Source: Paenibacillus sp. V4I7 (GTDB taxonomy: Bacteria > Bacillota > Bacilli > Paenibacillales > NBRC-103111). From it: a stretch of 64,000 nucleotides of DNA. Position 1 is the stretch's first letter; each line of letters begins with the position of its first letter. Shown in pieces: positions 3,108 to 57,650 of the stretch. The stretch is taken from the NCBI RefSeq assembly GCF_030817275.1, contig NZ_JAUSZD010000002.1, positions 5,456,001 through 5,520,000 of the forward strand, read 5' to 3'. A program made the translations under genes and the position numbers. The notes below the pieces were generated by a model. That model was not told the origin of the DNA. It was given only the letters and a program-made list of their open reading frames with translations, and ran no database searches.

Positions 3108-3359
3108 ATGAAACCAATCAAGACGGACGGTGAAGCCCTTATCATGAACGGTAGAAAACGAATCAAACGTACAACACTCCTAATTATAGGAGTAGTCCTG
3201 TTATGGGGGGCAGTCGCTATTTGGAATGAAGCACAAAAAAATGAATCAGGTGTAACCTCACCGCGGTCAACCTCAGCCTCATATCCATCTCCATCTCAGA
3301 AAAGTCACCAAACATCCATGAATTATGTAACAAATGGATATAAAATGAGCTCTCCCTAG
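3108..3359 (+). CDS. Small single-pass membrane protein of unknown function
   Basis: An 83-residue product not assignable to a family. It has a basic N-terminus (NGRKRIKRTT), one strong hydrophobic segment (LLIIGVVLLWGAVAIW, about residues 25-40) and a short polar Ser/Pro-rich tail (SPSQKSHQTS). The likely topology is N-in, C-out. GAGGGAGAG lies a few bases before the first ATG at 3108; the in-frame ATG at 3144 is an alternative that would give a 71-residue protein starting MNGRKRIK. It is divergent from bofC, with about 80 bp between the starts. No partner or function is indicated. Confidence 0.5.
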   Translation: MKPIKTDGEALIMNGRKRIKRTTLLIIGVVLLWGAVAIWNEAQKNESGVTSPRSTSASYPSPSQKSHQTSMNYVTNGYKMSSP

Positions 3360-3501
3360 CTTTATAATTTGACTGTAGCCACAGAAATGATATAGTCAGA
3401 AGTAGATGAAATATTCTCATACTATCCAGGGAAACCGATATATATTTGAAAAGGCAAATGCAAAGCTTACGATACCAGTTTTCTTGCGAAAACTATAAAC
3501 G

Positions 3502-3705
3502 GAGAGACTTTGAGCAAGCTCAAAGATCCCAAAGCAGAGAGACTTTGAGCAAGCTCAAAGATCCCAAAGCAGAGAGACTTTGAGCAAGCTCAAAGATCCC
3601 AAAGCAGAGAGACTTTGAGCAAGCTCAAAGATCCCAAAGCAGAGAGACTTTGAGCAAGCTCAAAGATCCCAAAGCAGAGAGACTTTGAGCAAGCTCAAAG
3701 ATCCC
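3502..3705 (+). repeat. Family B hairpin array: six identical 35-bp units before the sigma gene
   Basis: Units start at 3502, 3537, 3572, 3607, 3642 and 3677; the last is 29 bp. Each contains GAGAGA, the palindrome CTTTGAGC-AA-GCTCAAAG, then GATCCC and the spacer AAAGCA. All copies are identical, which points to recent tandem expansion. The array runs into TATATTAGGAGGGG, the ribosome-binding site of the ECF sigma gene, so the last hairpin lies within 20 bases of the start codon of that gene. Confidence 0.95.
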
Positions 3706-3725
3706 TATATTAGGAGGGGAACAGC

Positions 3726-4337
3726 ATGAATGTGGCAGAACTTCAATTAATTCAATTATCCAGACGGGGCGACCGCAACGCTTTCGTGGAGCTAGTCGAG
3801 TTATACCGTAACAAAATACAGAAACTTGCTTTTCGTATGCTGCATAACAGGCCTGATTCAGAGGACATTGTTCAAGAAACATTCATTCGTGTTTATTTGA
3901 ACTTAAACCACTTTGATGAAAGCCAGAACTTCTCTACTTGGATTTATCGAATTGGTAAAAATGTCGCCATTGACTTGCTGCGCAAAAAAAGGCCTGTTCA
4001 ATCCTTAGATGCCGAGTTGAACGATTATGACGATGATTACAGCTACTACAGTAAGCTTGCAAGTCAAGATCAGTCTCCTGAGCACGTTGTTCTCCAAACA
4101 GAAGTTCAAGAGCATATGCATACATCCATTAATAAATTAGCTGACAAATATAGAAGTATCATTACGTTATACTATCTGGAAGAGCTCTCCCTTCAGGAAA
4201 TAAGCGATAAACTGAACTTACCGATTACAACAGTGAAAACTCGTTTACATCGCGGACGTGAACTGCTTCGCAAAAAATGGGGTATGAATTTTGTTGTCGG
4301 TTTAATGACCTTTTTCACATTGGGTATGATTGCCTAA
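3726..4337 (+). CDS. ECF-type RNA polymerase sigma factor, SigW-like, with hydrophobic C-terminal tail
   Basis: An extracytoplasmic-function sigma factor directs RNA polymerase to stress or envelope promoters. The 203-residue product has region 2 (FRMLHNRPDSEDIVQETFIR, then STWIYRIGKNVAIDLLRKK, about residues 37-95) and region 4 with a helix-turn-helix (LSLQEISDKLNLPITTVKTR, about residues 157-176). It resembles SigW. Two things differ from the usual picture: no anti-sigma gene follows, and after the normal RELLRKKW end the protein continues with a hydrophobic stretch FVVGLMTFFTLGMIA. The gene is flanked by the six-copy hairpin array upstream and a strong bidirectional terminator downstream, so it appears monocistronic. 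Which promoters it reads cannot be told from here. Confidence 0.9.
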   Translation: MNVAELQLIQLSRRGDRNAFVELVELYRNKIQKLAFRMLHNRPDSEDIVQETFIRVYLNLNHFDESQNFSTWIYRIGKNVAIDLLRKKRPVQSLDAELNDYDDDYSYYSKLASQDQSPEHVVLQTEVQEHMHTSINKLADKYRSIITLYYLEELSLQEISDKLNLPITTVKTRLHRGRELLRKKWGMNFVVGLMTFFTLGMIA

Positions 4338-4357
4338 TCCTTAGCATAACGAAACTA

Positions 4358-4402
4358 AGAAGCCTCCTAATCCACAAATCCTGTGGTTTAGGAGGCTTCT
4401 TC
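4358..4402. terminator. Bidirectional terminator between sigma gene and safA
   Basis: A near-perfect stem of about 19 bp (AGAAGCCTCCTAA...TTAGGAGGCTTCT) with loop AATC sits between two convergent genes and can serve both. Confidence 0.9.
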
Positions 4403-4409
4403 TTCATTT

Positions 4410-5741
4410 TCAGAAATTAATCCAAGGTGCGTTTTGCTTAGCATCCTGCTTTTCAGAAGCCCTCTGCTGCCGTTTCAAGAAAGCATTGAGTGCTCCTGTA
4501 CCTGACAATTTCACTTTTTTTGAAGAACTGTCGCTGCTTGACCGATCTGCCTTTTTATCAGAACGGATGTCAATTTCAACGATTTCTTCTGTATCAGTCT
4601 CTTTCGCAAGCTCATGCGTATGGACTTGCGGCATAAGAGGCGACTCATAAGGAGCTTGGTAATGAGCTCCTGCATAAGGAATACCATAAGGAGCCTGCTG
4701 GTAGTCATATGGATTATGTGCAGTCTGTTGCATGTCATAAGGAGCCTGCTGGTAGTCATACGGATTATGTGCAGTCTGTTGCATGTCATAGGGAGAAGCT
4801 GGTGGATATATCCCAGGAATTGTAGGAAAGCCATGCTGATAACCATCCCACGGACTTTCAACTGTTCCGGTTGGATAACCCGCCGGGAATGTCGTCCACG
4901 GCTGTTCGATCATCGATTGGCCTCCGCAGCCACAACCATCATGACTCATTGGATAGGAGGTTTGCTCTGCATGATGTGGAAATTGTTCATATGGTGACTG
5001 CTGATACGGTGAATAAGCTGGATATGTTGGCACTTCTTGTTGCTCGGAACCTGGATAGGAAAATACCTCAGTCGCTTTAATGTGAAACTGCTGGAAAGGA
5101 TGAACCGCTTGCTGCTCGTAAGGTGCATTGAGACCAATAACCCCAGGCTCAGGTGTAGGAATGACTGGCGCAGATGCCATTGGCGAAGGTACGAACGGTT
5201 GCTCAGCCAACGGCATTGATTCTACATAGGGCGCTGACGGCGCTGATGGCACTGACGGCATTTGACTTATCGGTTCTTCTGCAATAGGCATAAATGGTTG
5301 CTGATATGAATCTGCAACAGCCCATGGCTGAGCTGATGGGACTTGCGCAAATGGCTCTGTTGATGGTTTAGACATCGATAATGGCTTAATTCCTACCTGC
5401 TCATGATGCATCTTGGGCACATATACAATTTCTCCTGTCATAAGTACATTGGGGTTCTTCAGATGTGGATTCGCTTTAATCATCTCTTGAAGGGATACAT
5501 CCCAAGCCTTACCAAGCTTCCATAAGCTATCTCCCTGCTGGACAACATGTTTATAGACGTAATCTGAAGCAGGTGGATCTACTGGCTTCGGTTTGGAAGG
5601 TATTTTCACCTTCATACCGACGTCAAGATGATCCGGTTGTTCAATTTGCGGGTTAAGCGCGATGACTTGGTCCAATGTGGTTTGATATTTTTTTGCAAGC
5701 TCGTACAGGGTATCGCCCTTTTTGACAATGTGGATTTTCAA
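4410..5741 (-). CDS. safA: SafA-like LysM spore morphogenetic protein
   Basis: SafA of B. subtilis is an inner-coat morphogenetic protein that binds cortex peptidoglycan through LysM and recruits coat proteins through SpoVID. The product has two LysM domains (IHIVKKGDTLYELAKKY near the N-terminus and VVQQGDSLWKLGKAW near residue 68), then a long Pro/Gln/Tyr-rich low-complexity region, including DGCGCGG and a duplicated 17-residue unit, and a basic C-terminus. I place the start at TTG 5741, because AAGGAGGT is 7 bases before it and abuts the ATG at 5747, and because the result begins MKIHIVKKGD like known SafA. The long Tyr/Gln-rich tail differs from B. subtilis. A three-unit family A repeat lies directly before the ribosome-binding site. 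A SpoVID homologue, its expected partner, is encoded at 36.0-37.1 kb. Confidence 0.82.
   Translation of the reverse strand: MKIHIVKKGDTLYELAKKYQTTLDQVIALNPQIEQPDHLDVGMKVKIPSKPKPVDPPASDYVYKHVVQQGDSLWKLGKAWDVSLQEMIKANPHLKNPNVLMTGEIVYVPKMHHEQVGIKPLSMSKPSTEPFAQVPSAQPWAVADSYQQPFMPIAEEPISQMPSVPSAPSAPYVESMPLAEQPFVPSPMASAPVIPTPEPGVIGLNAPYEQQAVHPFQQFHIKATEVFSYPGSEQQEVPTYPAYSPYQQSPYEQFPHHAEQTSYPMSHDGCGCGGQSMIEQPWTTFPAGYPTGTVESPWDGYQHGFPTIPGIYPPASPYDMQQTAHNPYDYQQAPYDMQQTAHNPYDYQQAPYGIPYAGAHYQAPYESPLMPQVHTHELAKETDTEEIVEIDIRSDKKADRSSSDSSSKKVKLSGTGALNAFLKRQQRASEKQDAKQNAPWINF
4685..4786. repeat. In-frame 51-bp tandem duplication inside safA
   Basis: Two 51-bp units (4685-4735, 4736-4786) are nearly identical, differing for example in CATATGG versus CATACGG. 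They encode two copies of a 17-residue Tyr/Gln/Asn/Pro-rich unit (AHNPYDYQQAP plus YDMQQT). The nearly intact synonymous sites suggest a recent duplication. Confidence 0.9.
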
Positions 5742-5756
5742 CACCATACCTCCTTA

Positions 5757-5876
5757 GAGTTTTCGTTAGAAAACTTACTTCGTAAGCATAAACTCGAGTT
5801 TTCGTTAGAAATCTTGCCTTTGTAAGCATAATCTCGAGTTCTCGCAAGAAAACTTGCTTCGTAAGCATTCGCTTAG
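5757..5876. repeat. Family A hairpin repeat, three ~40-bp units, upstream of safA
   Basis: Units 5757-5795, 5796-5835 and 5836-5876 each hold an inverted repeat (AGTTTTC...GAAAACT or a close variant) and the tail CTTCGTAAGCAT or CTTTGTAAGCAT. The arms differ from those before ruvB, but pairing is kept in units 1 and 3. The first unit touches the safA ribosome-binding site (CTAAGGAGG). Confidence 0.85.
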
Positions 5877-14347: not shown

Positions 14348-14377
14348 GAGAGACTTTGGTCTTGGACCAAAGATCCC
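14348..14377 (+). repeat. Family B hairpin, single copy, between spo0B and obg
   Basis: GAGAGACTTTGGTC-TTG-GACCAAAGATCCC. Relative to the array at 3502, the inner arms changed from GAGC/GCTC to GGTC/GACC, so pairing is kept. The orientation is opposite to the surrounding genes. Confidence 0.85.
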
Positions 14378-15263: not shown

Positions 15264-15302
15264 GAGAGACTTTGGTCTCCGACCAAAGATCCCTATATTA
15301 GG
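15264..15302 (+). repeat. Family B hairpin with full tail, between rpmA and spo0B
   Basis: GAGAGACTTTGGTC-TCC-GACCAAAGATCCC followed by TATATTAGG, the same tail that precedes the sigma-gene ribosome-binding site. Here no plus-strand gene follows, so the element exists independently of a start codon. Confidence 0.85.
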
Positions 15303-52347: not shown

Positions 52348-52430
52348 CCTAATATAGGGATCTTTGAGCGTAGCTCAAAGTCTCTCCGCTTAGGGATCTT
52401 TGGCTCCACTCAAAAAAAGATCCCTATATA
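52348..52430 (-). repeat. Family B hairpin plus a degenerate partner, upstream of hemA
   Basis: 52348-52386 holds a full family B element on the minus strand: GAGAGACTTTGAGC-TAC-GCTCAAAGATCCC then TATATTAGG. Next to it, 52392-52430 holds a degenerate copy whose ends form an 11-bp inverted repeat (TAGGGATCTTT/AAAGATCCCTA). The pair lies between hemA and a hypothetical gene and could also act as a terminator for the latter. Confidence 0.85.
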
Positions 52431-57618: not shown

Positions 57619-57628
57619 CCTCTGCACC

Positions 57629-57650
57629 TCCTAATATATGGATCTTTCAA
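57629..57650 (-). repeat. Family B remnant fused to the lonA ribosome-binding site
   Basis: On the minus strand GAAAGATCCATATATTAGG leads straight into AGG of the lonA Shine-Dalgarno sequence. The same sequence with CCC for CCA ends the sigma-gene array (CAAAGATCCCTATATTAGGAGG). The 5' arm of the hairpin is missing here. Confidence 0.65.

Follow-up and report, generated by a model that had tools for sequence, protein, structure and literature searches.

What six perfect tandem hairpins are doing directly before the ribosome-binding site of an ECF sigma factor gene is the question raised by this locus of Paenibacillus sp. V4I7. A first-pass annotation of the window (the whole stretch of 64,000 nucleotides that was analysed) had proposed that their number could change and so alter the translation or mRNA stability of the sigma factor, as a possible phase-variation switch. 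The array is instead one expanded member of a lineage-specific, dispersed hairpin family and is not special to the sigma gene.

The array and its sigma factor gene

For positions 3502–3705, Tandem Repeats Finder reported a period of 35, 5.8 copies, 100% matches and zero indels, with GAGAGACTTTGAGCAAGCTCAAAGATCCCAAAGCA as the unit. The array consists of five full units and a sixth that lacks the AAAGCA linker and ends at 3705; its six stems, CTTTGAGC-AA-GCTCAAAG, were located by motif search at 3508–3700, with first bases at 3508, 3543, 3578, 3613, 3648 and 3683. Exactly 20 nt (3706–3725, TATATTAGGAGGGGAACAGC) separate the last unit from the ATG at 3726, and the 3' junction TATATTAGGAGG (3706–3717), which is common to many other copies, contains the Shine-Dalgarno (SD) sequence GGAGG at 3713–3717. 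All these features are on the forward strand. The array is thus real as first described, with perfect 35-bp units of which the last stands 20 nt from the start codon of an ECF sigma factor gene.

This gene (3726–4337, forward strand) is of the SigW type according to the NCBIfam profile PRK09641 (238.6 bits against a cut-off of 209); TIGR02948, which also models SigW, gave 209.3 bits, under its cut-off of 243.1. Judged by this gene, the closest named relatives are Paenibacillus sp. Root444D2 and P. alginolyticus. The encoded protein has a C-terminal hydrophobic tail of about 15 residues. No anti-sigma gene lies directly downstream (3726–4410), where the neighbour is a SafA-like gene on the opposite strand. 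A second hairpin family is represented just 5' of the array by one unit (AGTTTTCTTGCGAAAACT, 3477–3494). This second family (AGTTTTCTNACGAAAACT and CTCTAAGGAGG) forms an array of 2.8 copies of 40 bp before the SafA-like gene (5757–5868, reverse strand), and in relatives without the first family (L016, L018, L019, L192 and L193) it stands in the position ahead of the sigma gene's SD.

Upstream of the array, a promoter scan combined with orthologue comparison pointed to the promoter-like sequence TTGACT-16-TATAGT (3369–3396, forward strand). The scan by itself was not above chance (2 sites found vs a shuffle mean of 1.9); the stretch is present in 11 of 11 close orthologues shown (L013–L021, L025 and L026), so the array probably lies within the 5' leader of the sigma gene. 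This leader (3400–3760) folds better than 100 shuffled versions, with a z of -6.26. When folding was predicted for 1 to 9 units, the mean exposure of the SD stayed at 0.47–0.49 and that of the AUG at 0.45; natural leaders with 2–6 units gave predicted SD exposures of 0.24–0.47, and five leaders without the hairpin family 0.14–0.63. Occlusion of the SD as a function of copy number was accordingly rejected, and with predicted exposure flat, a phase switch is left unsupported. The array could alter the stability of the sigma factor mRNA. Its influence on the gene is probably slight, through a structured leader and perhaps mRNA stability, and not that of an on/off switch.

A dispersed hairpin family and its placement

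A search of the whole genome for the hairpin core, as the first-pass annotation had suggested, found the exact 18-base palindrome in a single extra place, a seventh copy 2.6 Mb away. A laxer pattern in which the centre was free (AGARACTTTN{4,30}AAAGATCYC), run on the 8.54-Mb genome, gave 96 matches, 63 on one strand and 33 on the other, vs none for the reversed pattern. These 96 copies of the form AGAGACTTTG-NN-loop-NN-CAAAGATCCC, a count that misses decayed copies, make up 66 arrays: 50 of one copy, 8 of two, 4 of three, 3 of four and one of six, the last being that of the sigma gene. Of the 30 genus genomes, 28 matched a stricter pattern and two, G009 and G024, did not, copy numbers ranging from 0 to 93 per genome (the reversed control matched once, in G007). 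The family is restricted to the genus, the 217 other genomes sampled from the order containing it in two cases, with two matches apiece. No Rfam family reached its threshold for the hairpin; the best sub-threshold match, the MIR173 model, had an E-value of 0.00023 and was rejected at 32.4 bits vs a threshold of 70. Among the matches listed in a search of the open-access literature, we saw no description of such a hairpin family in Paenibacillus.

The window holds further copies at 14349–14377 (forward strand, centre GTCTTGGAC), 15265–15293 (forward strand, centre GTCTCCGAC) and 52357–52385 (reverse strand, centre AGCTACGCT, adjoined by a decayed copy). A 3' remnant, AAGATCCATATATTAGGAGG, stands without a recognisable hairpin at the SD and start (57627–57646, reverse strand) of a gene that we take to encode a Lon-like protease; the same junction, one mismatch away from AAGATCCCTATATTAGGAGG, is also among the matches in G004, G013, G020 and G027. 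The interval between the direct copies at 14349 and 15265, considered as a possible autonomous element, contains a 268-aa ORF without the look of a transposase, between a presumably Obg-like and a presumably ribosomal-protein-like gene, and was rejected as such an element.

The outer arms of the hairpin are constant by design of the search and only the centre was free to vary, where three inner base pairs covary. Among the 35 distinct 29-base copies in this genome, the share with a standard pair is 94% for 10-20, 89% for 11-19 and 91% for 12-18, levels that none of 2000 shuffles matched for any of the three, in a statistic that ignores the relatedness of copies; the fourth pair, 13-17, is unremarkable (119 of 2000 shuffles as high). 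In the 56 distinct copies from all sequences gathered, the three inner pairs are standard in 93.5% of cells vs 17–49% when partners are slid by 1–3 bases, kinship being uncorrected. Such covariation fits a hairpin that is recognised in the form of RNA or of single-stranded DNA.

Placement was assessed by asking whether an ORF of 60 or more codons, its start codon accompanied by an SD motif, begins 13–25 nt past the 3' end of an array and on the same strand. This was so for 19 of the 66 arrays, vs 2 of 66 in the mirror test and 191 of 20,000 positions drawn at random from the same sequences. The other 47 arrays failed the test, and the SD would thus be one target among several. Directly after the last unit, TATATTAGG follows in 25 of 66 arrays. 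With at most one mismatch allowed, this genome has 18 instances of the junction AAGATCCCTATATTAGGAGG, which is present in 23 of the 30 genus genomes (reversed control, 0). The base preceding AGAGAC is G in all 66 arrays, the flank being mostly GG, AG or TG, while the left flank otherwise differs from locus to locus. Besides the sigma gene, 18 genes carry the hairpin at their SD. Protein fragments of seven of these genes matched NCBIfam profiles, those for aspS and FloA above cut-off and, with scores under the full-length cut-off, those for thrS, SufB, IMP dehydrogenase, KdpB and CutC; a further gene, which we label znuB-like, had no NCBIfam match at 1e-40. Outside protein-coding genes, the scanned 16S–23S spacers of three rRNA operons (L158, L161 and L163) contain copies arranged in inverted pairs with a spacing of about 200 bp, one copy of which stands just before the 5' end of the 23S gene, and in two of these loci copies are found between tRNA genes.

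Filled and empty sites and the growth of arrays

For a comparison of orthologous sites, 14 filled genes were sought in eight relatives; two (NspC-like and a sugar ABC permease) were set aside and the sigma gene was added, giving 13 sites. Twelve of these come from the 19 SD-site arrays, the exception being an RsfA-like gene whose start codon is 26 nt away and whose hairpin is at a greater distance from the SD (TATATTATGTTAGGAGG). Seven of the 104 site-genome cells were omitted: five weak orthologues of 54–69% identity (kdpB, cutC, araC-type and DUF2953 in G023; cutC in G028), kdpB in G027, which gave no match, and cutC in G004, where the stretch missed the start. The cutC leader of G020 was partly masked. 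The 97 sites scored in the relatives, all chosen as filled in this genome, comprise 30 empty ones and 67 with 1–11 units.

Several sites can be read as pairs of states. Before the znuB-like gene, the empty site of G028 reads AGTAAGGAGCGGGC and the filled site of this genome AATAAAGAGG-[hairpin]-TATATTAGGAGCGGGC; for IMP dehydrogenase, the empty site of G013 is ATCAAAAGGAGGAAATCG and the filled site of G006 is ATCAAAAGCGG-[two hairpins]-TATATTAGGAGGAAATCG; and at the araC-type gene AACCC-CTATTTAGGAGG in G027 corresponds to AACCC-AAAGAGG-[hairpin]-TATATTAGGAGG in this genome. The kdpB site is filled in this genome only, of seven compared. The aspS and rhaD-like sites are occupied in all nine genomes, a pattern that selection for retaining the hairpin could explain as well. 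We read the filled and empty sites as probably reflecting movement rather than deletion. With regard to the features of MITEs, which have terminal inverted repeats of 15–30 bp and a target-site duplication, there is one short palindrome only, and GG or GGAG flanks both sides at several filled sites, with the SD of the gene retained; because the left flank is variable, we claim no clean target duplication. Beyond the 13 sites, a gene pair that we presume to be of ArsR and SRPBCC type is empty in G006, G022 and G028 and contains a remnant or several units in G013, G020 and G027. In this genome (L007, 1490–1560) a copy lies between the two genes, and the start of the second gene is lost relative to relatives.

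With one genome taken per species, the sigma site has six units in this genome, four in G027, two in each of G020, G006, G022, G004 and G013, and none in G028 and G023. The loops differ as well: all six units of this genome have AA, the four of G027 have TAC, and the two of G020 and of G022 have AA, then TAC. These observations bear out the proposal that the array was recently expanded or is kept uniform, and the copy-number change foreseen by the first-pass annotation is found to the extent that the array is labile over evolutionary time, the phase switch being the part that found no support. Within this family, adjacent units share an identical inner sequence in 22 of 30 cases vs 111 of 4507 pairs of units from different arrays, and linkers are specific to each array, several resembling the array's own 5' flank. 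Our preferred reading of the perfect array at the sigma gene is that units multiplied there recently and were homogenised, rather than that six insertions took place. Elsewhere growth has gone further, the array before aspS in G027 reaching up to 11 units.

Competing explanations and known repeat systems

We consider it quite likely that the family represents a REP/MIRU-like, non-autonomous mobile hairpin that takes up position at SD sites and grows into arrays on the spot. It is scattered, often exactly at ribosome-binding sites, and leaves the site usable, and so has the look of a mobile and gene-friendly element rather than of a switch for a single gene. An element of a hairpin of about 29 bp and a linker of about 7 bp would settle at G-rich sites, often the GG of the SD, in one orientation; leaders would consequently end in TATATTA-GGAGG and the gene would keep its ribosome-binding site. 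A settled copy would then multiply locally by slippage or unequal exchange, and this multiplication, together with homogenisation of units, would yield a perfect array such as that at the sigma gene. As a more specific and tentative proposal, possible rather than probable in our judgement, the hairpin would be a novel one that homes to the SD, re-creates the ribosome-binding site with its own 3' end (TATATTAGGAGG), uses a mover other than Y1/RAYT and shares its niche in the genus with a second, unrelated family (AGTTTTCTNACGAAAACTCTAAGGAGG).

A phase-variation switch, in which copy number would set translation or mRNA stability of the sigma factor, could draw on the perfection of the repeats and on the range of 0 to 6 units at the sigma site among nine species. 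Like arrays precede unrelated genes, however, including aspS with its longer array, and this argues, together with the flat predicted exposure, against a dedicated switch; moreover, the units are not in a coding frame. Since the same element also stands at 18 other SD sites, in rRNA spacers and between tRNA genes, and some relatives have no units at all, we give such a switch for the sigma factor very little chance. A selected cis-acting RNA is a broader alternative: hairpins before the SD would stabilise the mRNA, set translation or serve as binding sites for one shared protein, with the copies marking a regulon. Such a role would suit the covarying stems, the fixed place and orientation at 19 genes, the copies within a probable leader and the constant filling of the aspS and rhaD-like sites. 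Nevertheless we find it unlikely, given that thrS, aspS, IMP dehydrogenase, FloA, KdpB, CutC, a SufB/D-like protein and the sigma factor have no common pathway, that the hairpin is missing at 30 of 97 orthologous sites, that copies also occur as inverted pairs in rRNA spacers and between tRNA genes, and that all Rfam families scored below threshold. Type III antitoxin repeats (ToxI) are 36-nt repeats before a toxin gene, and tandem hairpins of about 35 nt preceding a gene recall them, or else a series of intrinsic terminators or attenuators; with no terminator-like site in 3300–4400 (shuffle mean 0.5), an ECF sigma factor rather than a ToxN-type toxin encoded downstream, and Rfam matches that are all sub-threshold, these readings merit practically no credence.

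There is more to be said for a true REP family mobilised by a RAYT/Y1 transposase, for which size, palindrome, dispersal and tandem clusters match the REPs described in excerpts of PMC3733652. The Y1 profile PF01797 was matched in 5 of 30 genomes of the genus (G004, G006, G013, G028 and G023), and four of these are among the eight genomes with at least 29 copies vs one (G023) among the 22 others, so that Y1 may have acted earlier or may act in trans. Yet the profile found no match in this genome, where the same search gave control matches in 5 of 14 genomes, and Y1 is absent from the three richest genomes (this one, G020 and G027) and from G022; none of the 12 Y1 loci examined has a hairpin copy in the flanks covered, and the flanks of the 66 arrays have no GTAG/CGTC tag as a consensus. 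RAYT/Y1 was therefore set aside as the mover, and we see little chance for this explanation. If the mobile hairpin favoured above is the right reading, settling at ribosome-binding sites, including those of thrS and aspS, with the site left intact would be an unusual form of coexistence between repeat and host. Related species offer natural series, from 0 up to 11 hairpins ahead of a given gene, in which the effects of leader hairpins can be measured, and, with a transposase missing, the mode of movement becomes a testable question.

REPs are palindromes of 20–40 bp with GTAG or CGTC tags, situated predominantly downstream of coding regions, according to the excerpted descriptions in PMC3733652 and PMC2817692. 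The hairpin described here resembles REPs and BIMEs, as far as those excerpts portray them, in its 29 bp, its many extragenic copies (96), its compensated stems and its partly tandem clusters. It differs in having neither the GTAG/CGTC tag nor, in this genome, a Y1/RAYT gene. Whereas REPs, in these descriptions, lie mostly downstream of genes, a place in which little harm is done, 19 of the 66 arrays of the Paenibacillus hairpin stand immediately before a gene, at its SD.

In Streptococcus pneumoniae, BOX elements likewise form a dispersed set of small hairpin repeats, one module of which (boxB) varies in number; the excerpted account in PMC3049150 also gives them boxA and boxC ends, terminal inverted repeats, target duplications and an over-representation between convergent genes. 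When the sequences flanking the first and last units of our arrays were compared, conservation extended over about 6–9 bases, with no longer modules seen.

Mycobacterial interspersed repetitive units (MIRUs), too, form variable tandem arrays. They are short mobile repeats whose insertion at start codons leaves the gene almost unaffected, as stated in the excerpt of PMC12548453. With these, to the extent of that excerpt, the hairpin shares the niche at translation starts and the single orientation (19 arrays vs 2 in the mirror test), its site being the SD rather than the start codon. MIRUs, as there described, carry an ORF coupled to the gene, whereas the hairpin lies in the leader and re-supplies the SD; no forward-strand ORF of at least 80 aa runs across the sigma-gene array. 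By analogy with these partial descriptions, the nearest known system would be the REPs in anatomy and the MIRUs in niche: a REP-like hairpin in what appears to be a MIRU-like niche.
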